NCBI GenBank assembly: GCA_036567965.1
Contig: DATCTN010000025.1
Span: forward strand, 1 to 64,000
From: Candidatus Kryptoniota bacterium
GTDB lineage: Bacteria > Bacteroidota > Ignavibacteria > Kryptoniales > JAKASW01
DNA: 64,000 bases
Reading direction: 5' to 3'
The notes beneath the pieces were generated by a model, which did not search any database, had not been told where the DNA came from, and saw only the letters and a program-made list of their open reading frames with translations. Every line of letters starts with the position of its first letter. Position 1 is the stretch's first letter. This document shows positions 38,450-58,768 of this stretch, in pieces. The position numbers and the translations under genes were made by a program.

Positions 38450-38586
38450 TTTGTACCTCCTTAAGAAATCTGTTTGTTTAGACAAATATACCGGACAAGG
38501 TTTTGTCCGAAATCCTAAAACTCAATGTCTGGTCTGCACCACCTCCCATCAACGCCAAAACATTAATAAAACAGTTGAACAGTTGT

Positions 38587-39901: not shown

Positions 39902-40951
39902 TCAATAGGCGACTTCAAAAGAGAGTCTTTGTACATCTGCAAAACCGCCTGTAAAAGGAGTCCATGAATAATCTATACCAAGATTCACTCCCGCGATATC
40001 CTTATGCAATCCCACACCGCCGCTGACTCCATAAACATCATTATTAAACATATATCCTGCACGGAGCGATATCATCTGCAAGAAAGTATACTCGGCCCCG
40101 ACATTGACCTGCTCAGGATAGTCTCTCGGGTGAGAGGCATCGACCGCCACAATCAGCGACTGCGTTTTACTGTCGATGTCCCAATTGTCCAGAACGTTCA
40201 TGGAAATCCCGATCTTGAAGATAAGAGGCAGATCGAAGCTCTCCTGGACGTATTTGAGCTGGCGCGAAAAATTTCTCACGTCCATTCCGAAGGCAAGGCT
40301 CTTGTATCCGGTTTTGTAAATCATGCCGAAGTCGAAGGAGACAATGTTGAGTTTTGACCTCGAAGTGACATAACCTCCACTCGTGCTAATGCTCGTCACG
40401 CTCGAGCCGAGGTCCTGGTTCACATAGTTCACGTCGCCGCCTACAGCAAACTTATCGCTCAACGCTTTAGCATAACCGATCCCCACGGAATACGCTGTCG
40501 GTGAGAAGGTGCCAAGATCCGCGTATCCGTTAGCGTTGCTCGCAAGTACCGTCTCGTCCATTTGACCATAGTTGACAGATCTGAAATAAAGGCCGATGAC
40601 GCCGTAATCGCCGTGGGACGGGCTGAACGCCGCACTGGCATAAAAATGTTTGATGTCCGCAATCCACTGTACCTGCCCAACGGAGAGAGACACCGCATTC
40701 TCAAGTCTTGCCATGCTGGCGGTGTTGAAAAACATTGCTGTCGAATTGCCGTCGAGCGATGTCGCAGTTTCTCCCATGCTTTCCATACGGGGATCAGTGG
40801 CGACGTTTAGGAAGTCCATTCCTGATTGCGCCAACTTCTGCTGCGCGGTAGCTATGGTTACCGAAAATTGGAGCAGCAACAAGACACAAAACGCGATTCC
40901 CGCTTTTGAAAGAAGGAGCTGGCATTTTCTCATTTCAGTTTCCATTTTCAT
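39902..40951 (-). CDS. PorV/PorQ-family outer-membrane beta-barrel protein (copy 1)
   Basis: 349 residues from the ATG at 40951 (AGGTG just upstream); a GTG at 40960 overlapping the previous stop is also possible. Signal peptide ends A-T-A-Q. The N-terminus of the mature protein (G-M-D-F-L-N-V-A-T-D-P-R-M-E-S-M-G) and F-F-N-T-A-S-M-A are PorV/PorQ signatures, followed by alternating beta-barrel strands and a C-terminal aromatic-containing end (S-F-E-V-A-Y). PorV is the shuttle of T9SS, but here the gene is part of a TonB receptor cassette and has a paralogue at 54672 in an equivalent position. A cassette-specific role is therefore as likely as general T9SS function. Confidence 0.85.
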   Translation of the reverse strand: MKMETEMRKCQLLLSKAGIAFCVLLLLQFSVTIATAQQKLAQSGMDFLNVATDPRMESMGETATSLDGNSTAMFFNTASMARLENAVSLSVGQVQWIADIKHFYASAAFSPSHGDYGVIGLYFRSVNYGQMDETVLASNANGYADLGTFSPTAYSVGIGYAKALSDKFAVGGDVNYVNQDLGSSVTSISTSGGYVTSRSKLNIVSFDFGMIYKTGYKSLAFGMDVRNFSRQLKYVQESFDLPLIFKIGISMNVLDNWDIDSKTQSLIVAVDASHPRDYPEQVNVGAEYTFLQMISLRAGYMFNNDVYGVSGGVGLHKDIAGVNLGIDYSWTPFTGGFADVQRLSFEVAY

Positions 40952-40956
40952 GTGGG

Positions 40957-43506
40957 TCACCTAATGACTACGAATTTCTTTATTGCGGTCTGCCCTTGCG
41001 GCGTTTGAAAGACGACTATGTAAACACCGCTCACCACGATCTGATTGGAAGACGTCGTCAAGTTCCAGTATTCATCGCCGCTTCCGTTACTATGCTGGAT
41101 CGACTTTATCAGCTGCCCCAGCTCAGTGTAAATCTTGATCGTACAGATCGGGGGTATGTTCAAGAAGCCGATCTGGTTCGGCTCGCCGGGATACAGCAGT
41201 TTGTTCTGGTCGGCGGAAATATTGTATGGATTCGGAACCACCCTGATGATATCGCTCAGACCGATGCGGGCTTGCTGGCTCTGATTGACTGAGAAGAAGA
41301 GAGTATCCGGTCCCTCTGTACCTGAAAGTACAAGTTGGCCAACGCTCGGTGGGGCGGCAGTCCCCGTACATCGGACTGACCCGGTGTAGTTGAACAGGTA
41401 TTTATAAGTTGTATCTGGTTGCCCATTCACCGTATCTATTCTCGCTATCGTGCTGGTTTTTATAGAATCCAGGAACGTCAGACTCGCGGATTGGACAGTA
41501 TAGATGCTGGCGCCGGAGGTATAAACCGCGTACGTAGGCAGACCGGTCATTATTTTGCTGTGCGTTGAGTCGATCGTGAAGACAACTTTCACCGGCTCAG
41601 GCACTCCGGGCCGCAACAATTTTGCAGGGTCAAATGTCTGGGTGTAGTACCGTCCACTTTCCAGCGCCACTCCGGCAGGTGTATCGGCCCCGCCGTTGTT
41701 GTCTGCGGGATCGCCCACAGAAGTGATGTAGTAGTAATAGTCGATGCCGCGAACCGGAGTTACGTCGTCATAACTCGTCGAGTTCGGCGAGCCCTGGTAA
41801 ATCAGATAATAAGTGCTATCGACCAATCCTTGTGCGCGGTAGACGTTGAACTGCGTAATGGTTGCGCCGCCTACCGGAGGTGTCCATGAGAGAAGTATTT
41901 TGTCACCGCCCGATGTAACTGTGAAGTTCGACGGTGGCAGCGGCGCCTCAGGCAAGCTATATCCCGAATGATAATTCGCCATTGCTCTTTGGAATGTCTG
42001 GAAAAGCGAATCCCTGCCGGTGTAAACCGAATCGTCCTTCTGAGCCGGGGTAATCTGACCAAGCTTGAACTCGCGTCCGATCCTGATACATGCTTCGCGA
42101 CTCAGGCCGGCTGCTGCTTCGACCATTACGATGTGGAAACTCTGTCCGGGAGCAAGATTATATGGGCCGTAACCGTTCCCGACAGACATTCCGCCGGTCG
42201 TACCTATTGATGGATCGCCGTAAACTCCCACTTTGTCAGCCATCCGCTGTCCGGACCAGCTCACAGCCCCATTGAGCCAGCCAACATCCTGACCTAGAGA
42301 CATCATTTGGTAGTCGGTCTGCATTATCGAACCATTGAACTGGCTGATGCTGTTGCTTTGATTGAAAGCATCATCTGAACTGTAGTAAGCGGTTGTGCTC
42401 GGCTCACCTGGATCGTCCGTCGTGTCAGCGGCCGATTTATCTGCATGTATAGTCGCAACTCCGATGAATTGAGCCCCCCCCAATCTGCCAAGAGTGTCTC
42501 CTGCCGGCGGACCGGGTTGAGCGAAGGCGTTTAACCAGATAGGCCCTCCTATATTGTCGCTCGTCGGCGCGCCGTTTCCCAACCCAGGCATCCCTGGCAC
42601 TGAGAAATCATAACTGCTACTCTTGTAGTTCCCCTGCCACGAGTAAATCGCCCTGATGTTGTCGTATTTATTTACCGGCTCATTTTTCAATACCTGCCCG
42701 CCAAAAAATGTTGTTGCTGGACTCGGGAAATCGCCCCGCACGTCGGCGTCATTATTTATTCCCCATCCCGAGGAGTTTGTTCCGACTATATACCGGGTAT
42801 CCGCGCAAACCGCGTACCTGTATTCGTACAGAAGGCGTATGCTGTCTAGTGGCTGGTTAGAAGTGTTCGTGAATGTGTAGTCGTAGATCACGTAATTATC
42901 GTGGAACTGCTGGCTAAACCCGATCATCTTCCTCACCATGGTGAGACCGATATATGTTTGCACGCTGTCAAATATCAGGCGATCTTCCTTCAAGTTCGGA
43001 TTCGTATTGTCTTCGTCGGGCGGAATATTGTATGAGGGATTTCCATCAACAAAAACTTGCGGTAGCGCAAATCTGTCTGTCGTTGTCAGCGCTTGAGGAA
43101 CGAACTCGGACGCATCGCCATCAGGCCTGGGTCCAAAATGGACAACCTTATATGGCCAGAACGAGTGGTCTTTCGGATCGGTCCAGTTTCTAACCCCAAT
43201 CCATATACCCTTAGCCGCCTCCATATCTTGGTTGGGATAAATCGCCGGCCAGCGATCGCCATCCTGCTGTACCAAAACTCTCTGTTCTTCATACTCGCTG
43301 CCTGCACTCGCATAAAAGCTCTGAAATGATCCTATGTCCATCCACTTTATTGCATATTGAGCGCGGGCAGATCCCCCCATGACAAGAAGCGTGAAGATAA
43401 TGCTCCCAAGAAAAGTCCAAAGCCCCAACTCCTTCGGAAGGAGTCTATTCGGAGAACCCGACTTCGGTAATTCGAAGTATTCTTCCGTCTCAATGTTCAA
43501 TTTCAT
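40957..43506 (-). CDS. Large exported FnIII-containing protein of TonB cassette 1
   Basis: 849 residues. A basic N-terminus is followed by a hydrophobic segment (L-G-S-I-I-F-T-L-L-V-M-G-G-S-A-R-A-Q), so export is likely. The body (~60-520) is beta-rich and not recognised. A fibronectin-III domain lies at ~530-620 (I-L-L-S-W-T-P-P, Y-Y-Y-Y-I-T-S-V-G-D). The tail (~755-849) has R-V-V-P-N-P-Y-N-I and S-G-V-Y-I-V-V-F, a variant of the T9SS-type sorting domain. The protein at 52475 is a paralogue in the last ~300 residues and holds the same place in the other cassette. It replaces the SusD position after a TonB receptor but shows no SusD/TPR features. Its stop overlaps a GTG of the PorV-like gene. 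Confidence 0.72.
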   Translation of the reverse strand: MKLNIETEEYFELPKSGSPNRLLPKELGLWTFLGSIIFTLLVMGGSARAQYAIKWMDIGSFQSFYASAGSEYEEQRVLVQQDGDRWPAIYPNQDMEAAKGIWIGVRNWTDPKDHSFWPYKVVHFGPRPDGDASEFVPQALTTTDRFALPQVFVDGNPSYNIPPDEDNTNPNLKEDRLIFDSVQTYIGLTMVRKMIGFSQQFHDNYVIYDYTFTNTSNQPLDSIRLLYEYRYAVCADTRYIVGTNSSGWGINNDADVRGDFPSPATTFFGGQVLKNEPVNKYDNIRAIYSWQGNYKSSSYDFSVPGMPGLGNGAPTSDNIGGPIWLNAFAQPGPPAGDTLGRLGGAQFIGVATIHADKSAADTTDDPGEPSTTAYYSSDDAFNQSNSISQFNGSIMQTDYQMMSLGQDVGWLNGAVSWSGQRMADKVGVYGDPSIGTTGGMSVGNGYGPYNLAPGQSFHIVMVEAAAGLSREACIRIGREFKLGQITPAQKDDSVYTGRDSLFQTFQRAMANYHSGYSLPEAPLPPSNFTVTSGGDKILLSWTPPVGGATITQFNVYRAQGLVDSTYYLIYQGSPNSTSYDDVTPVRGIDYYYYITSVGDPADNNGGADTPAGVALESGRYYTQTFDPAKLLRPGVPEPVKVVFTIDSTHSKIMTGLPTYAVYTSGASIYTVQSASLTFLDSIKTSTIARIDTVNGQPDTTYKYLFNYTGSVRCTGTAAPPSVGQLVLSGTEGPDTLFFSVNQSQQARIGLSDIIRVVPNPYNISADQNKLLYPGEPNQIGFLNIPPICTIKIYTELGQLIKSIQHSNGSGDEYWNLTTSSNQIVVSGVYIVVFQTPQGQTAIKKFVVIR

Positions 43507-43612
43507 TTCTTCCTCATAGTTCTTTTGCAGAGAAGCAACTGCGGCTCACCTCGAAGCATAAACGACACGCTTGTCTTCATCAAGAAGGTGAGTTGTGGCT
43601 TCATAGGATGAT

Positions 43613-46600
43613 TTACGGTATGTCATAAGTGAATCTGATTCCATAATAAAATGTTCTCGGATTGAGCATAGCCAGCTGCCAGAGATACGGCATTTTGATG
43701 TACGGTTTGCTCGACGACTGATAATCCCCCGGCGTGTCATTTCCCGGCGTGTTTATGTAACCAAAAACCTGATGCGTTGCGTCTCCGGCGACCGAAGAAG
43801 GAAGGTGTAGAGATTCCATGTAAGCCTTGTAATCTAACGCGTTAGGACCAAATCCATCGTCGTAGGACATGTACTTGTAATTGAAGATATTATAAATATC
43901 GGCAAACAGCTCCATATCGACGCCATAAAAATGGAACCCGCGGGTGATTCTCAGATCAAAGTCAAGGTAGTCTTTCCATTCGACGTTATTCTGGATGCCG
44001 GGGATGGTTTCGCCGCCGGACCAGGTGAACCATGGTCCCGCAGACCAATTGCCGAGTAAATTGATGTGCCAATCCGCCAGCACCTTGATTCCGCTCCAGT
44101 CCGGACCCAACCAGTTCGGCGTGAAGAAATCCAGATTTAATCTCGCATACGGCTGCGGAATAGGCTTCGTCTGGTAAAGGTCGGTATAATTATTTAAATC
44201 ATAAGTCCGCTGGTCGGCCGGACTCTGAAACTGATAAGCGTATCCGAACTGGCCGTTACTGGACACCATGTAGGTATAGTTTACAAAGCCCCGGAACCAG
44301 TCTCCCGTATTCTTCGAAAGGGTAATCTCGAAGCCTCTGATATCCTCGTAGTAGTTGCTCGTATAGAGCGAGTAGTTAACCAGACTGTTTGAACTGACGA
44401 ACGTCGTTGTTGTCCTCTCATCGGAGACATCTTTGTAGTACCCGGCGATGTGTATCAAGTATTTGTCGAAAAGACTTTGCTCGAAGCCTAATTCGTATTG
44501 AATCGTCCGCGGAAGAGGAGCGTTCGGATCGGCAACGAGAGTGACGTTATCTGTACCCAGCAGTCTGCGAATCATGTATAGATCATCAGCCGTGGGCATA
44601 GAATAGAAATGACCGTAGTTGAAGTATAATTTTGAGTTCTCGGTCACCGGGAAGGATATCCCCAGGCGAGGTTCGACTTCTACAAGGTACTTGGTCGATT
44701 TCTTTGAGACGGTGTCAAGCCCTACCTGATCTGCGCCGGAAAAGATCGGGGAATACGCATCACTGGTATTGTACCATTGGCCACCGGCGTGGGACATATC
44801 AACTCTAACTCCCAGGTTAGCAATCATGCCTTCGAACTCTAATTTGTCTTGCAGATATGCAGACGCACGAACAGGAAATGTGTGCCAATGCGACCAGTTG
44901 TTATCAGAAGTCAAAGCGGAGTCTATCAGTCCGTAATTGATGTTGTTGTCGGTATAGTTATACTCCAGACCTGTCTTAATCTGGTTATGTTCGTCGACCT
45001 GGCTTGTCAAATCGAATTTCACATTATACACCGCGATCACACTTGTGTCGCGTGAATCGCTCATTCCCAGTCCATTATTATTGAAACTGCTCAGGTAAGA
45101 TGCGTAAGACGGCGCTTTGGGGTAGTACCCGAATGGGAATTGATTTGCAAAAGAGAAATAATTCCCGAAGGTCGGGCTTGGAGTAGTACTCCTGTCGGCG
45201 GGGATAGACGTGTGGTATTGAGTCCCTGTCTCGCGAACGTTTATCTCATAAAAAGTCGAGGGACTGATTACGTGAGAAAGCTTTGCACCGAGCAAGTTGA
45301 AATCGACCCGACTTGGATTCCAATACCAGTCGGTGAACATTCTTGTGTCGATGTACGATCCTCCAAGAGGTCCCAATGAAGATAAATAGTCCGCAATCTG
45401 TCCACTGTTTTGAAAAATTCCGGGCTGCCCGTTCCTGGTATATGTAGTGCCGGTCTGCTCTCCCAGCATTCCTTCGAGATAGAGTTCCATCCCGGGGCCC
45501 ACATCCGACGTCAACTTCAACGAACCGTTGTAGTTCCGGTAAGCGTCCGTCGTGAGAGGGATCATATACATCGACTGCTGCGAAACGTAAGATCCCCAGA
45601 AACGAAGGTTGCCAAGCTGCTTGCTTATGACGGGGAATGGTCCGCCGAAGCTCGCATCGATATTATAGTTGGGCTTCAGTACACTGAAGTCCTTCCGATG
45701 CACCCATTCCCAAACTCTTTGAGCAGCGGTGGGAGTCAAGAACTGACTCGAGTCCCCCGACGCAAGCGATTTCTGAGATTCGGCAATCCACCCGTCGAAT
45801 CCCGGATATTGCGACTGTGTGGCTGCGTTCCATGCGCCGTCGTTTGTACCATAATACGCCACGGCGGGGTCAACATATGGTCTTACGAAATAGGTGTTGA
45901 ATCCATTCAACGGCCCGCCGAAATTCTGTGCCTGAGGTGGAGCAATTCGTGCAAGGACACTGATCGTGTAGTGATCCGTGCTCCCATTGTTCGTCGTGAC
46001 GTTTACGACGCCGGACCTGATGTCGCCATACTCGGCATTGAACCCGCCCGTCTGGATCTGGATATCTTTCACGGACGTCAGACTTATGGTGGTGTATGCC
46101 CAATTGTTCCGCTCGTCGCGCAGCGTGAAACCATCCACCATGAAAGCGGTCTGGTCGCTTCCCGCGCCGCGAATCACTAGACCGCTGTTGTTGCTTTGAA
46201 CACCGGCCTGCAATAGAACCGCGCCTGCGACACTGACAGTAGGTATCGACGCCACTTCAGCGGGTGAGATGTTTGTCGTACTCGCCGAAACGTCCTTCTG
46301 GATGACCGGCCTCGATGCGACGACAACCACTTCCTTGGTCGAGATCGTGGTCTCGGTCATCTTGAAATCCGCCTGAGTCGTCTGATCGATCGCAACGCGG
46401 ACATCCTCAAGTATCAGAGGAGCATAACCGACAATAGATGCTCTCAGGCGATATGTACCCGGCGTCAGATTTAATATTACGAAATATCCGTTCAGGTCAG
46501 TCGAGGAGCCGAGGGTCGTTCCCTCAACCAAGACGGTAACACCTACAAGTTTTTCACCCGTCGCCGCGTCGGTCACCGTTCCTGAAATCTTGCCGGTGGT

Positions 46601-46663
46601 CTGCGCAAAAGTCATCGCAGCGAATGTGAGAATGAACAGACAGCATGTTGCGAGCTTACTCAT
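43613..46663 (-). CDS. TonB-dependent outer-membrane receptor (cassette 1)
   Basis: 1016 residues, signal peptide ending T-F-A-Q. Residues ~23-110 are a carboxypeptidase-regulatory-like domain (G-K-I-S-G-T-V-T-D-A, L-N-L-T-P-G-T-Y-R-L). The plug domain follows (~120-240: V-V-V-A-S-R-P-V-I, V-I-R-G-A-G-S-D, F-N-A-E-Y-G-D-I-R-S-G-V-V-N-V), then a 22-strand-type barrel. It shares D-K-L-E-F-E-G-M-I-A-N-L-G-V-R and S-K-L-Y-F-N-Y-G-H-F-Y with the receptor at 47800, so the two are paralogues. It should import a bulky ligand across the outer membrane using TonB energy. AGGAG precedes the start, and a sigma70-like promoter and the 19-bp element lie upstream. First gene of a five-gene operon. Confidence 0.93.
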   Translation of the reverse strand: MSKLATCCLFILTFAAMTFAQTTGKISGTVTDAATGEKLVGVTVLVEGTTLGSSTDLNGYFVILNLTPGTYRLRASIVGYAPLILEDVRVAIDQTTQADFKMTETTISTKEVVVVASRPVIQKDVSASTTNISPAEVASIPTVSVAGAVLLQAGVQSNNSGLVIRGAGSDQTAFMVDGFTLRDERNNWAYTTISLTSVKDIQIQTGGFNAEYGDIRSGVVNVTTNNGSTDHYTISVLARIAPPQAQNFGGPLNGFNTYFVRPYVDPAVAYYGTNDGAWNAATQSQYPGFDGWIAESQKSLASGDSSQFLTPTAAQRVWEWVHRKDFSVLKPNYNIDASFGGPFPVISKQLGNLRFWGSYVSQQSMYMIPLTTDAYRNYNGSLKLTSDVGPGMELYLEGMLGEQTGTTYTRNGQPGIFQNSGQIADYLSSLGPLGGSYIDTRMFTDWYWNPSRVDFNLLGAKLSHVISPSTFYEINVRETGTQYHTSIPADRSTTPSPTFGNYFSFANQFPFGYYPKAPSYASYLSSFNNNGLGMSDSRDTSVIAVYNVKFDLTSQVDEHNQIKTGLEYNYTDNNINYGLIDSALTSDNNWSHWHTFPVRASAYLQDKLEFEGMIANLGVRVDMSHAGGQWYNTSDAYSPIFSGADQVGLDTVSKKSTKYLVEVEPRLGISFPVTENSKLYFNYGHFYSMPTADDLYMIRRLLGTDNVTLVADPNAPLPRTIQYELGFEQSLFDKYLIHIAGYYKDVSDERTTTTFVSSNSLVNYSLYTSNYYEDIRGFEITLSKNTGDWFRGFVNYTYMVSSNGQFGYAYQFQSPADQRTYDLNNYTDLYQTKPIPQPYARLNLDFFTPNWLGPDWSGIKVLADWHINLLGNWSAGPWFTWSGGETIPGIQNNVEWKDYLDFDLRITRGFHFYGVDMELFADIYNIFNYKYMSYDDGFGPNALDYKAYMESLHLPSSVAGDATHQVFGYINTPGNDTPGDYQSSSKPYIKMPYLWQLAMLNPRTFYYGIRFTYDIP

Positions 46664-46751
46664 ATAACTACACTCCTATTTAGAGTCAGGCAGTGTCTTT
46701 GGATTGATGCAATTCTGGTGGGCGGATATTACTCCGTGAAGGACAGAATCA

Positions 46752-46770
46752 GTAAACACTACTCGATCTT
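46752..46770 (-). promoter_or_regulatory. Copy 2 of shared 19-bp upstream element
   Basis: Identical to 36919-36937. It lies 89 bp before the TonB receptor start and about 20-40 bases downstream of the predicted transcription start. That would place it in the leader RNA or in a position where a bound repressor blocks elongation. Confidence 0.55.
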
Positions 46771-46794
46771 TCCTCCTGTTCTTGGATGTGTTGA

Positions 46795-46823
46795 AATATC
46801 AATACTAATAGTGATTATGTCAA
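46795..46823 (-). promoter_or_regulatory. Sigma70-like promoter of TonB operon 1
   Basis: On the minus strand a perfect TTGACA (46818-46823), a 17-base spacer and GATATT (46795-46800, 4 of 6 matches to TATAAT). It lies about 130 bp before the receptor start in AT-rich DNA. Confidence 0.55.
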
Positions 46824-47324
46824 GTCGACTGCTTGAAAATTCAAATCTATTTGTTTGAGAAATTTCGCGCAGAGAATAATTGTTTCTTGCTTGAACGAGG
46901 AGTCTGCGGAATCATCGCGGGTTCCATGTTAACCATAGATTTCCGCGATCCCCCAAGTGAAATCATATTTTTGAACCGGTATGATTTTGTGAATCCCCTT
47001 TTTTACAGTCCGCAATCCGCGAACGTCAATCCGACGAACAGAATTATGTGGTCGTTCAATGCGTTTACGCCTCCTCAGCTCATGGAAGAATGTGGAAACA
47101 GCAATACAGCAATTATTACCAATGATTTGAGATTTTGACGATGTCTCACTTTGCCGTTTACTCGCGCGAAAAATTTAGACGCACTCTGTGCAGATTCGTG
47201 AAATCAGATTTACGGTGTTGTTCCGCTGCAATAGCAGTAATGATTCAACTTATAATTCCCTGGATTCCCGGACATCCGATGTCGGTATCGTCGACTCTGA
47301 AAGAACAAATCACAACAGCTTGTG

Positions 47325-47355
47325 CCCCACTCCGGCAGGAGAAGTCCTAGTGGGG
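47325..47355 (+). ncRNA. Hairpin in divergent control region, possible structured RNA
   Basis: CCCCACT (47325-47331) pairs with AGTGGGG (47349-47355), and inside it AGGA (47337-47340) pairs with TCCT (47345-47348) around a GAAG loop, leaving a one-sided CCGGC bulge. It precedes the predicted plus-strand promoter, so it is not in that leader. It could be part of an independent small RNA or an unmarked terminator. Confidence 0.25.
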
Positions 47356-47474
47356 GCGCTTCTGAGATTCTCGTCAATGAAAGTATGTGTTCTTCTCTCT
47401 GGAGATCACCAAGAGTGAACGAAGTCTGAGTAAATGTGGAGCCTGTAAACTCACGCATCAGGAGTGGCTGCATA

Positions 47475-47503
47475 TTGACAATGTTCGTCAGGAGTATTAT
47501 CAT
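47475..47503 (+). promoter_or_regulatory. Sigma70-like promoter of TonB operon 2
   Basis: TTGACA (47475-47480), a 17-base spacer and TATCAT (47498-47503, 5 of 6 matches). It lies about 300 bp before the receptor start and predicts a leader of about 290 nt. Confidence 0.6.
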
Positions 47504-47799
47504 AACTCGTCGATCATGACGGGCTTGCGGTTTTGCGGCTCGTGTGTGTTGTGCGATCAGATTACACATGGAGGTTTGCGGTATTCGCGGCCTGAACAAA
47601 TATTCAGGAGAGTTATCCTCTTCTAGTATCCTGTCCCTAGCAGGATCAATTCCGTCAGGCGTAAGTCTAACCACAATCTCTCCAAATCGCTGCCGATGTA
47701 ATCAAAACCCGAAATCCCGTTCAACTCTCCCGCCAGGACGTGCAGGATTACAGAAGTGGGTAGATGTCAACTTTGCATTTACGCGAAGGAGGAAATCGC

Positions 47800-50700
47800 A
47801 TGAGATGTTTTTTTCACACTAATCGAAATTCCTTCTGGGCTACAACTTTCGCTTTCATTCTCCTGATCATCAACGTGGTTCAAGCCGCGAGCGGTAAAAT
47901 AGCCGGCAGAATTGTTGACTCGAAAACGGGGGAAGGCTTGACGGGAGTCACCGTAATAATCGATTCGCAGTGGGTTGCGGGCCGTCCGGTGAAACTGGAC
48001 CAACGGCTAGGTGCAATGACCGACGCGACCGGCTACTACGTCATCCTGAACGTTTCACCCGGTACTTATAATGTCACCGCTCGAATGCTGGGCTACGCTC
48101 CTGTAGTTCAGCGAGGAGTGACAGCCGAACCCGACCGGACCATCACCGTAGATTTCTCGTTAGAACAAAGTGCTATCGAGATGCAAGGTGTGGAAGTAGT
48201 GTACCGGGCAAACATTATCAAGCCGGACGTCGCGGGCACGCAAGAAGTTATTCATGCCCTAACGATAGACTACGCAGCGGTTACAAGGGTTGACGAATTC
48301 ATGGGAAAGCTCCAGGGTGTGGAGCTGGTCGACAACAACCAGGGACATGGACTGAGCGTGCGCGGCGGAGCCATAAGAGAAACCGATATACGTCTTGACG
48401 ACATCTCGCTTCAGGACCCGCGATCCGAGAATTCTTATCTGTCATTCAACTCCACCACCATTCAGGAAATACAAGTGATGACCGGCGGCTTTCAGGCAAA
48501 GTACGGCGGGATCCAGTCAGGATTAGTCAACGCGGTGACAAAAGACGGCAGCCGCGAAAAGTATGGTTTCTCTCTGAACTACAATATGACTCCGGGAAAT
48601 TATCAGAAGTTCTTCGGTACAAATCCGTGGAGCGATCAGTCGATGATCTACCAGGTGTTCACCGGAAAGTACGCGATGCACGGCATTCAAACTCACGCCG
48701 ACAGCCTCGCAGTCCCTCCGGAGTTCTGGGGATTCAAGGGCTGGGCGACAAAGAAATCGGGCCGATACTCGACCGGGACATACACGACACCTTACGTAAA
48801 GTTCCCCGCCGGTTTCACACCGCAAACTATGCTTGATTCGACTCAGAGAATGAAAATCTGGGAACTCAGGCACCCGCAATATCCGATAGCGACTCAACCC
48901 GATTATTATCTCGAAGGAAATCTGAACGGTCCGCTTCCCGGTGAAGACATACCGCTTTTAGGTGAATACCTCGGACATACCACTTTTCTACTCGGCGGGA
49001 AATACGAGAACACACAGTTTGCATATCCGCTCGGAGATCGTAGTAATTATGCCGACTGGAACACCCAATTGAAGCTCACGACAAATTTTACTACTGGTGA
49101 CAAGCTCACAATAGAAGGGATGTTCGCGAATGTAAACACTTTGAATAACGGCCAAGGGAGTACATACGGAGGCGCGCTTCAGGAAGGCTCGTCCAGCTTC
49201 GGGTTCATGACAAACACAGAGAGCTCCATCATACAACAGGCATCTCTCCTCGGCGGCGGAAACTTCCCGCAAATTTTCAATATCAGCCGTATGCAGCTCT
49301 ATGACCAGCAATACATAATCGGTGGATTGAAATACACACATACCCTCTCACCTGAAGCTTTTTATACATTAAGCGCGCATTTCCAGTCTTATGCACCCCG
49401 ATTGTCATCGTACTCACTCGACACGAGCCAGACGAGCGCATGGTATTACATGGTCGGCGACGATGTCTATACGACGCCGCAGCCCGGCGCTATCAAGATC
49501 ATGAAGGTTCCCGCAGGCGGCACGCCAAACGGCTCTACGAATTTCGTCGCGGACGAGCTCGGGATGTTTCAGCTGGCAGGCGGCGAACAGAGAGTCGACT
49601 CTTCGCATACGTGGGAGGCGCAACTCAACTGGGACGTCGTGTGGCAATTCGACAGGCACAATGAATTCGAAGCGGGTTTATCCATGCAGCTTACCGATCT
49701 CCATGTTTACACGGGCACCTGGCTTCAATCACAAACATCATGGACACCCGACCTCTGGCAATATTACGATGCCAAACCGCTGACGGGAGGAGCTTATGTA
49801 CAGGATAAGCTCGAGTTTGAAGGAATGATAGCCAACCTCGGCGTGAGATTTGACTACTGGAATCCCAACAGGAACGGATTTGATATTACCAATCCACCCT
49901 CACCGGCGTACTCGGCGCTCTATAATGATTACTATTCCAATCTCCCCGGCGCGTTCGGTTCGTACCAGAGATGGCTGGCATACGAAGGACTTATCGCATC
50001 TCCGCCAGGGTGGCCGACCACTCCAAACAAAGCGCAGGTTGCGGTTTCGCCGCGTCTGTCCGTTTCGTTCCCTGTTACCGAGAGCAGCAAATTGTATTTC
50101 AATTACGGACATTTCTATCAGCGCCCTCCGGTTTCATTTCTCTACGACCTCGCGCTTTACCCGGCAGCGGCAACTGTACCATCACCTGCCCTCGCCATGG
50201 GTAAGACAATCTCATATGAATTCGGGTATGAACAGTCCTTCCTCCAGCAGTTCCTTGCTACGGTTTCTTTCTATTACAAGGATGTCAGAAATCAGCCGCT
50301 TCCCCAGACGTATGTCGATTACTATCACGAGAACGAAGTTACCCAATACGTACCGGATGCCTACAACATTGTCGAAGGTTTGGAGCTGAGATTGGAGAGA
50401 AATATCGGAAGCTGGGTGACCTTTTGGGCCAATTATGACTACATGCTGCTCAGCTCAGGAGAGAGCGGTCTGGCTTACGTATATGAAAACCAGCTTGAAG
50501 CCGCAAATGCCCAGCGGTCCGCAAATCTCACCACGACCAATCCCAAGCCGAGAGGGCACGTCGATCTTAATCTGCATACGCCCCCGAATGAGGGCCCGAT
50601 CATCAGCGGCTGGTACCTCGATATTCTTTTTGACTGGCAGTCGGGTGGAAGGATGCTCTGGAACGGAAGTGCTCCGGTCAAGGATTGGGAGTGGATCGAT

Positions 50701-51006
50701 GTAGTCGATTACTCGAATGTTGATTTGAGACTGACGAAGACTATCTCATTCAGCAATCTGAACATGCAGCTGATTCTCACCGTCCAAAACGTTTTGGATG
50801 AAAAGCGATTAGATGTGGACAACATGACCCTGGATCAGTTGAACAACTACAAGAATTCTCTCCATCTTCCATTCAATTCAGGCAGCATGAAGGGAAACGA
50901 CAAGTGGGGTGAGTACGACAAGTCATATATCAACATCGGATGGTGGACCGCACCGCTGTTCCTTAACCCGCGCCGGATACTTCTCGGATTCAGAGTCGAC
51001 CTATGA
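47800..51006 (+). CDS. TonB-dependent outer-membrane receptor (cassette 2)
   Basis: 1068 residues from the ATG at 47800, chosen because AAGGAGG lies 8 bases upstream; an in-frame ATG at 47764 is less likely. Signal peptide (F-A-F-I-L-L-I-I-N-V-V-Q-A-A). Residues ~33-140 are a carboxypeptidase-regulatory-like domain with an insertion (G-R-I-V-D-S-K-T-G-E-G-L, L-N-V-S-P-G-T-Y-N-V). The plug follows (~145-270: S-V-R-G-G-A-I-R-E, F-Q-A-K-Y-G-G-I-Q-S-G-L-V-N-A), then the barrel. It is a paralogue of the receptor at 43613. Its stop overlaps the start of a GH18 chitinase gene (ATGA), so receptor and chitinase are translationally coupled, which points to a chitin- or amino-sugar-derived ligand. Confidence 0.93.
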   Translation: MRCFFHTNRNSFWATTFAFILLIINVVQAASGKIAGRIVDSKTGEGLTGVTVIIDSQWVAGRPVKLDQRLGAMTDATGYYVILNVSPGTYNVTARMLGYAPVVQRGVTAEPDRTITVDFSLEQSAIEMQGVEVVYRANIIKPDVAGTQEVIHALTIDYAAVTRVDEFMGKLQGVELVDNNQGHGLSVRGGAIRETDIRLDDISLQDPRSENSYLSFNSTTIQEIQVMTGGFQAKYGGIQSGLVNAVTKDGSREKYGFSLNYNMTPGNYQKFFGTNPWSDQSMIYQVFTGKYAMHGIQTHADSLAVPPEFWGFKGWATKKSGRYSTGTYTTPYVKFPAGFTPQTMLDSTQRMKIWELRHPQYPIATQPDYYLEGNLNGPLPGEDIPLLGEYLGHTTFLLGGKYENTQFAYPLGDRSNYADWNTQLKLTTNFTTGDKLTIEGMFANVNTLNNGQGSTYGGALQEGSSSFGFMTNTESSIIQQASLLGGGNFPQIFNISRMQLYDQQYIIGGLKYTHTLSPEAFYTLSAHFQSYAPRLSSYSLDTSQTSAWYYMVGDDVYTTPQPGAIKIMKVPAGGTPNGSTNFVADELGMFQLAGGEQRVDSSHTWEAQLNWDVVWQFDRHNEFEAGLSMQLTDLHVYTGTWLQSQTSWTPDLWQYYDAKPLTGGAYVQDKLEFEGMIANLGVRFDYWNPNRNGFDITNPPSPAYSALYNDYYSNLPGAFGSYQRWLAYEGLIASPPGWPTTPNKAQVAVSPRLSVSFPVTESSKLYFNYGHFYQRPPVSFLYDLALYPAAATVPSPALAMGKTISYEFGYEQSFLQQFLATVSFYYKDVRNQPLPQTYVDYYHENEVTQYVPDAYNIVEGLELRLERNIGSWVTFWANYDYMLLSSGESGLAYVYENQLEAANAQRSANLTTTNPKPRGHVDLNLHTPPNEGPIISGWYLDILFDWQSGGRMLWNGSAPVKDWEWIDVVDYSNVDLRLTKTISFSNLNMQLILTVQNVLDEKRLDVDNMTLDQLNNYKNSLHLPFNSGSMKGNDKWGEYDKSYINIGWWTAPLFLNPRRILLGFRVDL

Positions 51007-52433
51007 AATTGTCAATGACAAGATTTCGCTCGTCGGCAAACGAAGTCGCGCAAAGATATCTGACGCTACTCAACGTCATCATCGCGGTTGTATTCGCCGG
51101 CTCTTTCAGCAACTCGCAGGCGCAGAATAAAGCAGTGGTCGGATACTACTACTTCTGGGACAAGTCGGCATTTCCCTACACGGAAATCGAATTCAACAAG
51201 GTCACATGTATTTCCCACGCGTTCATTGTCCCGAATTCCGACGGGACTCTTTCTCCCGAGCCCGGTGCGACAATGAGCGATTATCTTTATCCCCAAATGA
51301 TAACCGCGGCGCACTCCGCGAATGTGAAAGTAGTAGTTACAGTCGGTGGGTATGGAGACGGGAAAGGCTACGGTTTCTCTTCTATTGCCGCAGGTGCGAC
51401 GGCGCGAGCAAACTTCGCCGGCAACCTGAAAGATTTTTGCCTCCAGTACGATTATGACGGAGTGGACATCGACTGGGAATACCCGGGAGCCGGTGACAGA
51501 GCGAATTTCGTACTCATGATGAGGGCAGTTCACGATTCGCTCGCTTCGGCAGGCCGCAATCTTTCCCTGAGTGCCGCTGTACCAGGATACATCGGAAGCG
51601 GGTATGATTTTGGCGCACTTGACAGCCTTCTGGACTGGGTGGGAGTGATGACGTACGACTACTATGGATCGTGGACAAGCGTGTCAGGTTTCGTCTCTCC
51701 GCTCTACGACCCGGCTCCAGGAGCGACAACAGATAACGAGGGTTCGATCAATTCCTCGATGACTCAGTTCCTGCAAGGCACAACGATACCTTCATCAAAG
51801 CTTTTCATGGGACTGGCATTCTATGGTTACAATTTCCAGGCAGCCGGGCTCTATAAGCCGCGAACCGGTGCCGCGCCTTCAGTGTCATACGCGAACGCTG
51901 TCGCCTACCAGAATTCAGGCTGGACTTATCACTGGGACGACGTCTCGAAGGGCCCCTACCTCACCGATGCGTCCGGCACTCACATCATAACATTTGACGA
52001 TACGAATTCGATCGCGCTCAAGTGCAACTATTTGAAAAACAAAAATCTCGGCGGCGTGATCATCTGGCGCCTCGGACTGGACTATGTCAGCGGCTCACAA
52101 CCCTTGCTGGAGACAACCTGGAAAAAGTTGAATACACCAACTGCAATTGTGTTTCAACCGAACGTCCCCGATCGCACAAGCGCCCTGCAAAATTTTCCCA
52201 ATCCGTTCAATCCGATAACAGTTATCAGCTATAAGCTGTCAGCTAACAGCCATGTCGGCTTGAAGATTTATGACGTGCTCGGTAGAGAAGTCGGACTCCT
52301 CGTTAACCGGATCGAGAATGCCGGACTGCATGAAGTCATGTTCGACGCTACAAAGCTATCAAGCGGTGTTTATTTTTATGTCCTATCCATAAACGGAAAA
52401 TCATTTTCAAAGTCGATGCTTTACTTAAAATAA
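51003..52433 (+). CDS. T9SS-exported GH18 chitinase
   Basis: 476 residues. The N-terminal ~41 residues contain a hydrophobic stretch (L-L-N-V-I-I-A-V-V-F-A-G) ending N-S-Q-A-Q. The GH18 barrel (~43-375) has V-V-V-T-V-G-G-Y-G, the catalytic D-G-V-D-I-D-W-E (152-159, proton donor Glu159), M-T-Y-D-Y-Y and I-W-R-L-G-L-D. The last ~80 residues are a T9SS tail. GH18 enzymes cut beta-1,4 bonds next to GlcNAc using the substrate N-acetyl group, in chitin or, in some members, in peptidoglycan or N-glycans. The 4-bp overlap with the TonB receptor gene suggests that the enzyme works at the surface to feed that receptor. Confidence 0.92.
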   Translation: MKLSMTRFRSSANEVAQRYLTLLNVIIAVVFAGSFSNSQAQNKAVVGYYYFWDKSAFPYTEIEFNKVTCISHAFIVPNSDGTLSPEPGATMSDYLYPQMITAAHSANVKVVVTVGGYGDGKGYGFSSIAAGATARANFAGNLKDFCLQYDYDGVDIDWEYPGAGDRANFVLMMRAVHDSLASAGRNLSLSAAVPGYIGSGYDFGALDSLLDWVGVMTYDYYGSWTSVSGFVSPLYDPAPGATTDNEGSINSSMTQFLQGTTIPSSKLFMGLAFYGYNFQAAGLYKPRTGAAPSVSYANAVAYQNSGWTYHWDDVSKGPYLTDASGTHIITFDDTNSIALKCNYLKNKNLGGVIIWRLGLDYVSGSQPLLETTWKKLNTPTAIVFQPNVPDRTSALQNFPNPFNPITVISYKLSANSHVGLKIYDVLGREVGLLVNRIENAGLHEVMFDATKLSSGVYFYVLSINGKSFSKSMLYLK

Positions 52434-52474
52434 TTTCTTTCTCGAAGGGTTCAATCGAGAACAGGAGCAAGAAG

Positions 52475-54634
52475 ATGTTGAAGAGTAGAAGACACGCACA
52501 AATTGTCGCGGCCTTTGCAATCGTGATGCTATACCAGTCGGTTGCAATGAGTCAGGCCGATTACACCGCCCCTCCGATGACAATAAATGTCAACTCATTT
52601 CAGTGGATACCGAGCAAGACCCGCGGCGACGGCGGAATGATAAACGAGTACAGCTGGGACTTCGCCACCGATGATGCGGCCGCGACAAATCCCCAGAACG
52701 GTTTCGACTTCTTCTGGCCGGCTGACCATTACCTGTCTAACATGCTCTTCCAGATATTCAGCCCGATATGTCTTTCGGACACAGGATTGGTGGATACTTC
52801 CGGCGTCAGGCATCCAGAGTTCGCAGACTCCCCCTACATAAGTGCGGGCACTACCGATTGGACATGGGAGCGTCGCAGATATCGGCCGCCGAATGTTTAT
52901 GTCGACGGTATAAAACTCAACCCGCAGTACAACTGGCAGGTGGATCCCACTTTGAAGGCAGATGAAATCTGTGAGTTCAACGATCTTATAACCGCCTATG
53001 GGATGCGAGCGCACGTAAGAATCTACGCGTTCAGTAACCCGGAGCTTTCTAACGTCGCCATCTGGCAGGTCACATTGACTTTTACGGGCGAAATAGCTTT
53101 GGCGAAACAGAAACCACCGCGACGTCTCCCCGATCAGACGATATCAATGTGGTGGCCATTCTCCATGAGCTTCGGTCCTTCGATACTTGGAAAGGAAGCC
53201 GTGTACAGCTCCTACGGCTACGAAAGTGAAGATGTATTGGACAGTTGGACGACGAAGACGAGCCAGCTTGTTACCGACGATCCGAGAAAAGATTTGCTCA
53301 TCGCTTACTACTATGATTTTTGGAACAACGGACTCGCCGGCTCTCCGACTTACACCAACGGCTCGCAGGATAACAGCGGAGATCCTGACAGGATCACGGG
53401 CCATCTCTACTCAACTCAAATCCCCGGTTATGCGCTTCTGTATGCGCCGGTCTCAGTTTCAAACAGTGCCGATGACCAGAACGAACCTTTCTCCATGCCG
53501 CATGCGAGCATCACTGCTGATGTGTGGGGAAGGCGCGATCTCGGTTTGCGAGACACATACATCGGCACAGATGGCCGGGGGAAATTTCCCCTTGACCCGA
53601 TAACCGCGGGACTTGCTACGAGCCCGCAGAAAGGTCCGATGCGATTCATTACGTCGGGTCCGTACAGCTTTACCAAGAATTCTGTGTCGGGCGAATATGA
53701 TTCCATAACTTTCGTTTATGCGATTGCTTCGGGTTCAGTCCCCTACGAGGTTGGCGACAGCATCGGACGCGCATGGTTCAACGGACAGATCACGGATGCG
53801 GTGAAGGACAGTCTCATATTGACCGGCGGAAAAGATTCCCTCGCGAATTCAATAGACCGCGCATACTGGGCATGGGACCAAATCAGTCATGGCAGAACTA
53901 TTCCGGCACCGCCGCCTCCGCCGGATATCGACGTCCACAGCGCGCCGGACAGCGTTACAGTGAACTGGTCTTATCCCGACCAATCTTATTTTAGAAACGC
54001 GATCACAGGTGTGGAAGACTGGTACGCCTGGCGCGTGTACAGGAAGAAAGGCGCATACTACGTCGACGATCCGAACGATCAGGGAAGCGGCGCAACGTGG
54101 CAGCTGGTGTACCAGACCACGAATAGGACCGAGACTACGTTCAAAGATACGAGCGTGGACAGAGGAGTAAATTATTACTATGCTGTAACAGCTCTGGATG
54201 ATGGCACACAGAACAACGGCTTGTACCCGGGCACGAAGCTGGAAAGCTCAAGATACGCGACACGAACGTCACTGGCCGCATCACCGTTCAAACCGGGTCT
54301 CAGTGTATCCGGTAAAGTGAGAGTTGTGCCGAATCCCGCGACGATTGCTTCGGGCGCTTTGGGTCTTCCCATACGAACTGGAGGAGGCGGACCCACCGAT
54401 CAGATTTCATTCTATAACCTGCCGGTCAAGTGCACGCTCTCTATCTACACAGAAACCGGCAACCTTATCAAACGGTGGACCCATTACGGACCGGCAGACG
54501 ATACATGGGACCAACGGACCGCGAGCAACCAGTACGTCGCCAGCGGAATCTATATTCTGGTCGTGAGCAACTCACAGGGATTGACCGGCCAGAGTCTTGC
54601 CGACCAGTTCGTGAAATTTGTAATCGTCAGGTGA
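52475..54634 (+). CDS. Large exported FnIII-containing protein of TonB cassette 2
   Basis: 719 residues, signal peptide ending V-A-M-S-Q-A. The body (~25-475) is beta-rich and unrecognised. A fibronectin-III-like domain at ~485-590 shows V-T-V-N-W-S-Y-P-D, W-R-V-Y-R-K-K-G and Y-Y-Y-A-V-T-A-L-D-D. The tail carries R-V-V-P-N-P-A-T-I and S-G-I-Y-I-L-V-V, a variant T9SS-type domain. The FnIII-to-tail part aligns with the protein at 40957 (both have L-E-S-S/G-R-Y before the tail). It lies 41 bp after the chitinase and 37 bp before the PorV-like gene. Its location makes a surface ligand-binding partner of the receptor plausible; no SusD-like features are visible. Confidence 0.72.
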   Translation: MLKSRRHAQIVAAFAIVMLYQSVAMSQADYTAPPMTINVNSFQWIPSKTRGDGGMINEYSWDFATDDAAATNPQNGFDFFWPADHYLSNMLFQIFSPICLSDTGLVDTSGVRHPEFADSPYISAGTTDWTWERRRYRPPNVYVDGIKLNPQYNWQVDPTLKADEICEFNDLITAYGMRAHVRIYAFSNPELSNVAIWQVTLTFTGEIALAKQKPPRRLPDQTISMWWPFSMSFGPSILGKEAVYSSYGYESEDVLDSWTTKTSQLVTDDPRKDLLIAYYYDFWNNGLAGSPTYTNGSQDNSGDPDRITGHLYSTQIPGYALLYAPVSVSNSADDQNEPFSMPHASITADVWGRRDLGLRDTYIGTDGRGKFPLDPITAGLATSPQKGPMRFITSGPYSFTKNSVSGEYDSITFVYAIASGSVPYEVGDSIGRAWFNGQITDAVKDSLILTGGKDSLANSIDRAYWAWDQISHGRTIPAPPPPPDIDVHSAPDSVTVNWSYPDQSYFRNAITGVEDWYAWRVYRKKGAYYVDDPNDQGSGATWQLVYQTTNRTETTFKDTSVDRGVNYYYAVTALDDGTQNNGLYPGTKLESSRYATRTSLAASPFKPGLSVSGKVRVVPNPATIASGALGLPIRTGGGGPTDQISFYNLPVKCTLSIYTETGNLIKRWTHYGPADDTWDQRTASNQYVASGIYILVVSNSQGLTGQSLADQFVKFVIVR

Positions 54635-54671
54635 TTACTCTTTATGGGAAGATCAGATTGGAGATACTGAG

Positions 54672-55700
54672 ATGATGAAGATTCGTCATTATCTAATGAT
54701 TGCGGCGTCGACTTATTTTCTTCTAACCGGCAGCGCCATGGCACAGACCGAAGAAGCACAGGCAGGTTTCCGGTTCCTGGAAAATCCCGTCTCAGCCGAG
54801 GCGATGGGTAAGGCCGGCAGCGGAGTGGCAACGATGACCAATTCGGACGCGGTGTTTTGGAATCCCGCGGGACTCGGCTGGATCGACAAGCAATTTGACC
54901 TGAACGTCAACTACACCGAAGGTATCGCAAACATAAACTACTTCGCTCCTTCGATTGCCGTGAAGATCGGCGAACTTGGCGTGCTCGCTTTCGACGGAAT
55001 GATTATGGACTACGGAGATTTCTATGGCACACGGTACGCTGCTAACCCGCAAGGATATGTCGAGACCGGTACATTCACCCCTCAGGCCTTCGCGCTTGGC
55101 ATCGCTTTCTCCCAGAAAGTCAGCGATAGATTTTCTTACGGTGTACATATTAAATATGCCTACCAGAATCTGGGAGATGCCTGGGTTTCAACTGCGGGGA
55201 CGAGTCTTTCCGATCCCGCATTACAGATAGCAACAGTCAGGTATTCGCATGGAGAACCCGCGTTCGATGTAGGCGCATTGTATGATTTCAAATTTCATGG
55301 CGTCCGGTTCGCTGCGGCAGTCCAGAATGTCTCCCGGCAAATTACATATGAGCAACAGGCTTTCTTCCTCCCATTCTCGGTAAACTTCGGCCTGACCGTC
55401 GAACCGCTTTCGTTCCTGATGGCGGACTATTCGTCCTCCAGCCAATCTTTCGTCCTGAGTGTTCAGTCGACTCACCCGCGGGATTTCAACGAGAGCGTCC
55501 GCGTGGGAGGCGAATACAACTTCGCGAAAATGCTTTCACTGCGAGCCGGATATATGACAGGTCTGGACGAAAGAGGGTTCACGGGTGGAATTGGCGTCTC
55601 ACAGAATTTCGGAGGCATCAACCTGCATATCGATTACGCATACGAACCGTTCGGCGTTTTCGGCGCTGTTCATTTCATCTCGTTCGGCACTTCATATTGA
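54672..55700 (+). CDS. PorV/PorQ-family outer-membrane beta-barrel protein (copy 2)
   Basis: 342 residues, signal peptide ending S-A-M-A-Q. The mature start (A-G-F-R-F-L-E-N-P-V-S-A-E-A-M-G) and V-F-W-N-P-A-G-L match the PorV/PorQ family, followed by barrel strands. It aligns along its length with the protein at 39902: F-T-P-Q-A-F-A-L-G-I-A here against F-S-P-T-A-Y-S-V-G-I-G there, and S-T-H-P-R-D against A-S-H-P-R-D. It closes the second TonB cassette. A PorV-type partner could help export or anchor the FnIII protein encoded just upstream. Confidence 0.85.
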   Translation: MMKIRHYLMIAASTYFLLTGSAMAQTEEAQAGFRFLENPVSAEAMGKAGSGVATMTNSDAVFWNPAGLGWIDKQFDLNVNYTEGIANINYFAPSIAVKIGELGVLAFDGMIMDYGDFYGTRYAANPQGYVETGTFTPQAFALGIAFSQKVSDRFSYGVHIKYAYQNLGDAWVSTAGTSLSDPALQIATVRYSHGEPAFDVGALYDFKFHGVRFAAAVQNVSRQITYEQQAFFLPFSVNFGLTVEPLSFLMADYSSSSQSFVLSVQSTHPRDFNESVRVGGEYNFAKMLSLRAGYMTGLDERGFTGGIGVSQNFGGINLHIDYAYEPFGVFGAVHFISFGTSY

Positions 55701-57940: not shown

Positions 57941-57946
57941 ATACTC

Positions 57947-58768
57947 ATGAAGAAAAAAATCTATTCTTGCGCGCTCCTGTTACTATTCGCCTTCGCGGGT
58001 GGAAAACATGACGCCGACGAAAGGAACTCCAGCAAAATGAAAAACGGTACACAGACTATCCTGGCAATCGGGGCTCACGCGGGTGATATGGAGATCTCAT
58101 GCGGGGCAGTTCTTGCAAAGCAGGCCATGATGGGAGACCGGGTCGTGATTCTTCACCTGACGCTCGGTGAAGGCGGAAATCCAAAGATGTCAGCCGAAGA
58201 CTACGGCAGCCAGAAGAAACGTGAGGCGCTCAAGGTCGACAGCCTCCTTGGCGCCGAGCCAATCTTCGGACCCTACCACGACGGCGAGCTCCCTAACGAC
58301 GAGGTCGCGAGACATTATGTCGCCAACGTCATCAGGATGGTGAAACCGAGCTGCATAATAACACACTGGACAAAAAGCATTCATAAAGATCATTCCAACG
58401 CGCACGCGGTAGTGGTAGATGCCATACTCCTCGCAAGCTTGCCGTCGGTGGGAACTGTAACTCCTTACTCGGAGACCGAATATCCTGAGTGGCGCGGTGT
58501 GAAGCGCATCTTGTACACCGAGAACTGGGAGGACATGGACGATTATCAGCCGTACGTTTACGTGGACGTGAACGAGTCGCTTGAGAAATGGGAGAAAGCG
58601 GTAAAGGAGTACGAGTTCATCGGAGGAAAGATCTCGAGCTTCCCTTATTTGAATTATTACAAGTCGCTTGCATCGGTTCGCGGAGCGGAAGCCGGATTCG
58701 CCTGCGCTGTTTCATTCAACGTCGACCAGTTCGATAAGAAACTAATATGGAAGACAATTAATCCATGA
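57947..58768 (+). CDS. PIG-L/LmbE-family amino-sugar deacetylase
   Basis: 273 residues. Zinc-site motifs are A-I-G-A-H-A-G-D-M-E (His44, Asp47) and H-K-D-H-S-N-A-H (146-153). The family removes N-acetyl groups from GlcNAc-containing substrates, e.g. MshB and archaeal diacetylchitobiose deacetylase. In the usual A-H-P-D-D motif the first Asp is the general base; here that place is Gly46, as in the A-H-x-G-D branch of the family. Starting at 57947 gives a weak signal peptide (A-L-L-L-L-F-A-F-A-G) but has no clear ribosome-binding site. An internal ATG at 58037 (Met31) has AAAGGAA upstream and would make a cytoplasmic form. The stop overlaps the next start (ATGA). Confidence 0.85.
   Translation: MKKKIYSCALLLLFAFAGGKHDADERNSSKMKNGTQTILAIGAHAGDMEISCGAVLAKQAMMGDRVVILHLTLGEGGNPKMSAEDYGSQKKREALKVDSLLGAEPIFGPYHDGELPNDEVARHYVANVIRMVKPSCIITHWTKSIHKDHSNAHAVVVDAILLASLPSVGTVTPYSETEYPEWRGVKRILYTENWEDMDDYQPYVYVDVNESLEKWEKAVKEYEFIGGKISSFPYLNYYKSLASVRGAEAGFACAVSFNVDQFDKKLIWKTINP

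Follow-up and report, generated by a model that had tools for sequence, protein, structure and literature searches.

The window, i.e. the whole stretch of 64,000 nucleotides analysed here, carries two oppositely oriented gene cassettes, each encoding a TonB-dependent receptor (TB), a secreted protein initially named after its FnIII domain (FN) and a PorV-like outer-membrane barrel (PV). The genes and domains discussed in the following are:

34368..36740, minus strand: GHL10 glycosidase-like protein carrying FnIII and a type IX sorting domain, an enzyme associated with cassette-1-type loci
37076..38485, minus strand: gene 5 of cassette 1, kept in orthologous cassettes; its secreted product has a type IX sorting domain of the ordinary class
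38587..39843, minus strand: gene 4 of cassette 1, lipoprotein with an LNGC box, a TIG domain and propeller-type repeats, kept in orthologous cassettes
39902..40960, minus strand: PV1, PorV/PorQ-family outer-membrane barrel of cassette 1 (NF033709, 172 bits)
40957..43506, minus strand: FN1, predicted type IX cargo of cassette 1, 849 amino acids, with signal peptide, beta-super-sandwich, FnIII and C-terminal sorting domain
40960..41244, minus strand: C-terminal sorting domain of FN1, residues 755-849, of a distinct class
41950..43344, minus strand: predicted beta-super-sandwich and helical linker of FN1, residues 55-519, with a structure match to GH116
43613..46663, minus strand: TB1, TonB-dependent receptor of cassette 1, 1016 amino acids, with Pfam plug, barrel and CarbopepD_reg_2 and an N-terminal CarboxypepD_reg extension
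47764..51006, plus strand: TB2, TonB-dependent receptor of cassette 2, with PF13715/PF13620 before the plug
51003..52433, plus strand: GH18 chitinase of cassette 2 with an ordinary type IX sorting domain
52475..54634, plus strand: FN2, predicted type IX cargo of cassette 2, 719 amino acids, with a predicted architecture as in FN1
54302..54631, plus strand: C-terminal domain of FN2, residues 610-719, predicted to be structurally similar to the retained PorZ C-terminal domain
54672..55700, plus strand: PV2, PorV/PorQ-family outer-membrane barrel of cassette 2 (NF033709, 154 bits; Pfam PorV, 29.4 bits)

Mechanical ORF calling recovered all seven genes that the initial annotation had assigned to the two cassettes as intact open reading frames at the coordinates first reported. 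Cassette 1 was incomplete in that description, which left out the two conserved genes at 38587-39843 and 37076-38485. For PV1, starts at 40960 (GTG) and 40951 are equally possible, as are starts at 47764 (ATG) and 47800 for TB2. The genes show an operon-like packing, in which FN1 overlaps PV1 by 4 bases and TB2 the chitinase gene by as many, the remaining gaps spanning 37-106 bases; scans for promoters and terminators gave site numbers no higher than those in shuffled sequences.

Each member of cassette 1 aligns significantly with its counterpart in cassette 2, in agreement with the initial annotation. In pairwise comparisons the receptors share 28.6% identity over 1114 columns (E 2e-119), the FN proteins 26% over 544 (E 2e-16), rising to 41% within their last 114 residues (E 3e-18), and the barrels 35% over 329 (E 2e-57). 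The cassettes had been described as duplicated and specialised, of which the paralogy stands but a local duplication does not: in a tree of the PorV-like barrels those of the window are not sisters, PV1 grouping with L020-L025 and PV2 with L151, ruling out a recent tandem duplication. As each PV groups with orthologs in other genera and not with the other PV, the cassettes are old paralogs, two of eight such cassettes in this genome, which are neighbours by happenstance. The distances of TB, FN and PV correlate among seven cassettes of the genome (r 0.78-0.89; exact permutation p 0.001-0.004), indicating inheritance as one block while saying nothing of physical contact.

The eight cassettes are found in a genome of 4.1 Mb, in which, the cassettes included, the TonB plug is matched 28 times and the PorV/PorQ family 19 times. 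Gene order across the genome, sampled from separate stretches, revealed a PorV-family gene directly after seven of the eight FN genes, counting the window cassette containing the chitinase gene. The chance of even six of eight such adjacencies is ~2e-13, assuming ~16 PorV-family genes among roughly 3700 genes, the latter number being an estimate. Searching genome contigs with FN1 yielded 33 loci, distributed over Ignavibacteria, Rhodothermales, Balneolaceae and Neomarinimicrobiota, most of them showing in profile searches the order TB-FN-PV followed by the TIG lipoprotein and the sorting-domain protein. Both extra genes are present in 22 of the 26 close cassettes having enough flank, and the unit is confirmed to be larger than first reported.

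An FN profile was run on a sample of 148 genomes of the phylum, avoiding the bias of the FN1-seeded search, and detected the family in 79 of them. Among the 87 FN genes from this sample, 57 have a TB directly upstream, 49 a PV directly downstream and 45 both, which upholds the view that receptor, FN and PV form a recurrent unit; these counts are lower bounds, as loci are partly cut by contig or region ends. FN lies about three genes ahead of TB (order FN-x-x-TB) in 22 more of the 87. This second cassette order (L054 393-11816; also L101-L109 and L157) comprises FN, a sorting-domain protein of ~750 amino acids, a protein of ~500-650 amino acids, the receptor and a PorV-like barrel. In the phylum of the Neomarinimicrobiota locus L048, 76 of 80 genomes encode FN, and the loci inspected have a TB upstream in 20/20 cases and a PV downstream in 13/20 within flanks of ~1.5 kb. 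Between FN and PV, the cassettes of this phylum contain a protein of ~230-350 amino acids with no Pfam match (L048 6963-7994; L173-L181). The TB/FN/PV set occurs in well over a hundred sampled genomes, in lineages with few or no SusD genes. Intervening genes are present in some cassettes, and some FN genes, e.g. at L150 and L162, have no PV or no receptor nearby in the sequence examined.

The unit had been described as missing SusD, and this holds far beyond the window: no match to SusD (PF07980) was obtained in the whole 4.1-Mb genome, and in 42 FN-bearing genomes no SusD gene was found within 10 kb of an FN gene, the closest to a listed FN gene being 10.3 kb away. Neither rare co-occurrence of the genes nor a SusD gene adjoining them in relatives, each of which would have spoken against the initial annotation, was thus observed. 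At least one SusD is encoded by 21 of these 42 genomes, among the 21 genomes of the window's own class by only three, and in the L048 phylum SusD matches, many of them weak, occur in 15 of 80 genomes compared to 76 of 80 for FN. Distances of 10-13 kb between SusD and FN genes are confined to one family, at least one case sharing a gene run. At L170 (4132-19331), a single run of genes leads from a SusCD pair through two FG-GAP/ASPIC proteins to the TB of an FN cassette, which suggests that a locus can draw on the two uptake types together. Both TB1 and TB2 carry the CarboxypepD_reg extension (PF13715/PF13620) ahead of the plug; TB1 reaches 66.7 bits with the SusC/RagA model, which has a cut-off of 368, and TB2 does not match it. 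We rejected FN as a SusD homologue, there being no sequence match and SusD being missing from the listed fold matches, an absence that by itself is no proof. FN lacks a SusD signature and differs from SusD in its predicted fold, so that any SusD-like role would be a functional replacement rather than a case of homology.

The label FnIII protein proved inadequate, FnIII being a minor part of these proteins: Pfam fn3 remains below cut-off in one FN of the window pair and is absent from the other. The structural models of FN1 and FN2 (27% identical; mean pLDDT 68 and 71, the FN2 model being built from an alignment partly overlapping that of FN1) share a beta-super-sandwich followed by two helices. 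The FN1 super-sandwich matches GH116 with a Z-score of 15.2 (4.0 A, 263 residues) and also GH94, GH65, GH15 and GH149, and both models match GH116, GH94, GH65 and relatives with Z ~15 over 260-270 residues at 4-5 A. In enzymes of the GH116/GH94/GH65 type, the super-sandwich precedes a catalytic (alpha/alpha)6 helical barrel. This barrel is missing from the models of FN1 and FN2, in which FnIII and the C-terminal domain follow the helical linker. It is plausible that the predicted super-sandwich serves as a scaffold for sugar binding, the fold alone being no proof as the beta-super-sandwich is found also in proteins that do not bind sugars.

FN proteins possess a Sec signal peptide, as read from the sequence, and a lipobox-like motif is present in 6 of 125 family members and missing in the other 119, which makes a SusD-like lipoprotein unlikely. 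At the other end of the protein, the FN2 C-terminal domain is structurally similar in its model to that of PorZ (PDB 5m11, residues 687-776; Z 10.7, 2.4 A, 88 residues, 26% identity). FN1 matches the type A signal model TIGR04183 with 26.8 bits (cut-off 23), FN2 being below the cut-off and unlisted, and the type B signal model TIGR04131 gave no match in FN at E 0.001. Using one model for the FN signal and one for the ordinary type IX signal, both trained on other genomes, all eight FN C-terminal domains of the window genome obtain 53-130 bits from the FN model as against 9-20 from the ordinary model; 13 ordinary cargo proteins of the same genome score 102-134 bits with the ordinary and 7-32 with the FN model. 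This separation into classes rules out that the FN signal is just another sorting domain. A few system-associated or atypical proteins obtain low scores with both models. Like the FN proteins, PorZ of the window genome scores higher with the FN model (33 bits) than with the ordinary model (11), and PorU scores about equally (27 versus 31); as the domain of PorU is also retained, the FN-type signal class does not mark retention cleanly. In solved structures of the Flavobacterium translocon a C-terminal lysine contacts PorV (PMC10994853), and 113 of 125 FN proteins have this lysine at the corresponding position, K844 being invariant in A1. The chitinase and the product of gene 5 carry the ordinary signal, resulting in two signal classes within one operon. 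Taken as a whole, FN proteins are very likely exported by the type IX system.

The canonical type IX components are encoded elsewhere in the window genome, all scoring over their cut-offs (SprA 937 bits, PorU 918, PorV 257, PorQ 245, PorZ 359) and PorU adjoining PorV, so that the full attachment machinery is encoded and the cassette barrels are extra paralogs. PV1 and PV2 score 172 and 154 bits with the PorV/PorQ subfamily model NF033709 (cut-off 90), staying below the cut-offs of the PorV equivalog NF033710 (73 and 65 bits; cut-off 250) and the PorQ equivalog NF033711 (82 and 77 bits; cut-off 220), and below that of the PorV2 equivalog. The cassette barrels in general pass the subfamily threshold but none of the equivalog ones. 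These cut-offs and the canonical genes found elsewhere rule out that PV is the general PorV or is PorQ. Of the 55 cassette members in a tree of 82 barrels, 54 fall on one branch (support 93) apart from canonical PorV, PorQ and the other paralogs of the genome, the barrel of L060 being an unplaced long branch. Other arrangements of PorV-family genes were also observed: L063 (5636-11490; G000:C31) encodes a PorU-like protein of 1615 amino acids followed by a PorV2-like barrel, a second pair of the attachment type besides the canonical PorU-PorV, and L064 (10132-14040; G000:C15) carries three consecutive divergent PorV-family genes with no FN or receptor neighbour.

Type IX cargo leaves via SprA and is then collected by a FadL-type barrel; PorZ retains its C-terminal domain, bound to PorQ, and cognate PorV-like barrels were suggested to possibly shield such domains from cleavage (PMC10202324). 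In type B systems the cargo is handled by a barrel encoded alongside (PMC9143113, PMC12618676), and type A signals are said to all use a single PorV (PMC12618676). The earlier idea of a PorV-type barrel exporting or anchoring FN is consistent with the type IX signals on the FN proteins. These proteins could also be ordinary cargo, transported by the general PorV, cut by PorU and joined to lipopolysaccharide, with PV having another job, e.g. as a FadL-type channel for small products, and the clustering reflecting shared regulation. The match of FN1 to the general type A model, the weak matches of the PVs to the FadL family (Toluene_X) and the existence of canonical PorV and PorU in the genome are in line with such a scenario. 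We regard it as unlikely, as the barrel profile is far nearer to PorV (6h3i, E 6e-28) than to the FadL-type TodX (3.5e-5), the FN signals form a separate class within the same genome, and FN-PV adjacency is far above chance. We consider it likely that FN is handled by its own barrel.

The cassettes are embedded in a genomic context of polysaccharide use, as had been supposed. The window as a whole constitutes an amino-sugar polymer utilisation island (8840-36740 and 56798-61205, in addition to the cassettes), encoding a NagB-type isomerase, a ROK kinase, a BadF-type kinase, an MFS transporter, an SSF symporter and a NagX-like protein along with a GH2 enzyme of the exo-glucosaminidase type, a GH3 enzyme fused to a beta-lactamase domain, a PIG-L deacetylase and the chitinase. 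An amidase and GHL10 of the island carry type IX sorting domains. At 1973-7408, the window encodes a protein of 1811 amino acids combining a right-handed beta-helix, a dockerin, a cohesin and a type IX sorting domain in one chain. Cassettes at other loci neighbour pectin/uronate genes (GH88, UxaC and pectinesterase at L059), GH31 (L148) or CBM9 (L158), and a tally of neighbours across cassettes contains pectinesterase, GH5, CBM6, esterases, sugar kinases and LacI-type regulators. GHL10 is found at 14 of 28 cassette-1-type loci compared to none of 60 loci of other FN types, and with E. coli DigH being a GHL10 protein, this points to peptidoglycan glycans for cassette 1. DigH was shown to hydrolyse denuded peptidoglycan glycans (PMC12288456). 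A chitinase homologue is encoded near L151, the closest cassette-2-type locus. For the ligands we infer that, most likely, cassette 1 serves peptidoglycan-derived and cassette 2 chitin-derived glycans.

Glycan uptake is probably what the cassettes mediate, individual ones possibly transporting something else. A general role in importing non-glycan nutrients such as peptides, metals or cofactors, with glycan genes lying nearby only in some cases, would suit the TPR/cytochrome-type proteins neighbouring L146; the glycan-related genes in the window, at L059, L148 and L158 and in the neighbour tally, and the shared gene order of the Rhodothermus marinus alginate locus (PMC9530828) render it improbable. 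Another reading takes the FN:PV pair as a surface adhesin or matrix-binding module holding cells on the polymer, the TonB receptor working alone and without a lid. It draws on FnIII domains and type IX adhesins being widespread and on type B cargo on PorP/SprF barrels being known or predicted adhesins (PMC12618676). A receptor directly upstream of 57 of the 87 FN genes and at 20 of 20 loci of the L048 phylum is a tighter association than a general adhesin would predict, and FN is predicted to fold like carbohydrate-processing enzymes and unlike repeat adhesins, leaving an adhesin quite improbable.

We favour, with moderate confidence, a model according to which the cassette is a Sus-like, TonB-driven uptake unit whose surface binding protein leaves the cell through the type IX system and is held in place by a PorV-like shuttle of its own. 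TB would be the gated channel of the cassette. FN would be made with a Sec signal peptide, cross the outer membrane via SprA using its C-terminal domain and be picked up by the PV encoded by the adjoining gene instead of the general PorV. The C-terminal domain would stay uncut and bound to PV, which would act as a fixed anchor as PorQ does for PorZ; this retention is proposed because the domain is of the PorZ-like class. The exposed super-sandwich of FN would then bind oligosaccharides at or over TB, in cassette 1 assisted by the TIG/propeller lipoprotein. We infer the pairing of barrel and cargo, the retention of the domain and the contact with the receptor, and within this model we see the chances of retention as evenly balanced and a lid-like contact of FN with the receptor as just as open to either outcome.

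More tentatively, and with somewhat more doubt than confidence, the cassettes might represent a separate class of TonB importers, with a dedicated PorV-type shuttle that delivers the lid and retains it for good. In the SusD-poor lineages, namely Ignavibacteria with their relatives and Neomarinimicrobiota, they would be the main glycan route, and in Rhodothermia a second one next to SusCD. If true, such a class would overturn the rule of one PorV for all type A signals. It was reported that carbohydrate gene clusters of Ignavibacteriales contain susCD 'scarcely' and that Ca. Kapabacteria have none, with two Ignavibacteriales genomes encoding ~55 carbohydrate gene clusters (PMC10576277). The cassette is a concrete candidate for oligosaccharide import in such SusCD-poor bacteria, occurring as several copies in a genome and in almost every genome sampled from the L048 phylum. 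It would join TonB uptake and type IX secretion, two hallmark machines, in one device, would give a role to many unexplained PorV/PorQ-family paralogs, and is usable as a genome marker for glycan loci missed by SusCD-based annotation.

In the literature searched, the coverage of which is incomplete so that an earlier description is possible, we found no paper describing the triad as a system. Related loci were reported for R. marinus. The alginate locus tonB-hypA-hypB, which also contains characterised alginate lyases, has the same order of TonB receptor, type IX sorting-domain protein (2181 nt) and PorV/PorQ family protein (1056 nt), annotated without a proposed role; we liken it to the cassettes by its gene order (PMC9530828). 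In the xylan locus, which may resemble the cassettes by its gene listing, the genes after a TonB receptor encode hypothetical proteins, of which two have a sorting domain, and a SusCD pair lies beside them (PMC6987092).

Comparison with known systems reveals partial similarities to three of them. SusCD importers likewise combine a TonB receptor carrying a CarboxypepD_reg extension with an adjoining surface partner and a TIG-type lipoprotein within polysaccharide utilisation loci. In contrast to these, the cassettes have no SusD homologue, their receptor scores far under the SusC/RagA cut-off and a PorV-family barrel is included; unlike SusD, FN is a predicted type IX cargo without a lipid anchor and with a different predicted fold. 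PorZ:PorQ resembles the cassettes in pairing a secreted protein having a PorZ-like C-terminal domain with a PorV/PorQ-family barrel, domain retention being the proposed mode. The cassette genes are, however, not orthologs of this pair, as the genome has its own PorZ and PorQ, and they are linked to TonB receptors and present in many copies. The type B systems SprB-SprF and PG1035-PorP share with the cassettes the arrangement of a cargo gene followed directly by a gene for its own FadL-type barrel, which in type B collects and anchors the cargo, whereas in the cassettes the signal is type A/PorZ-like and the barrel belongs to the PorV family. By analogy, the cassettes would fit a third case, in which a PorZ-like cargo and its own PorV-family barrel are placed beside a TonB receptor.
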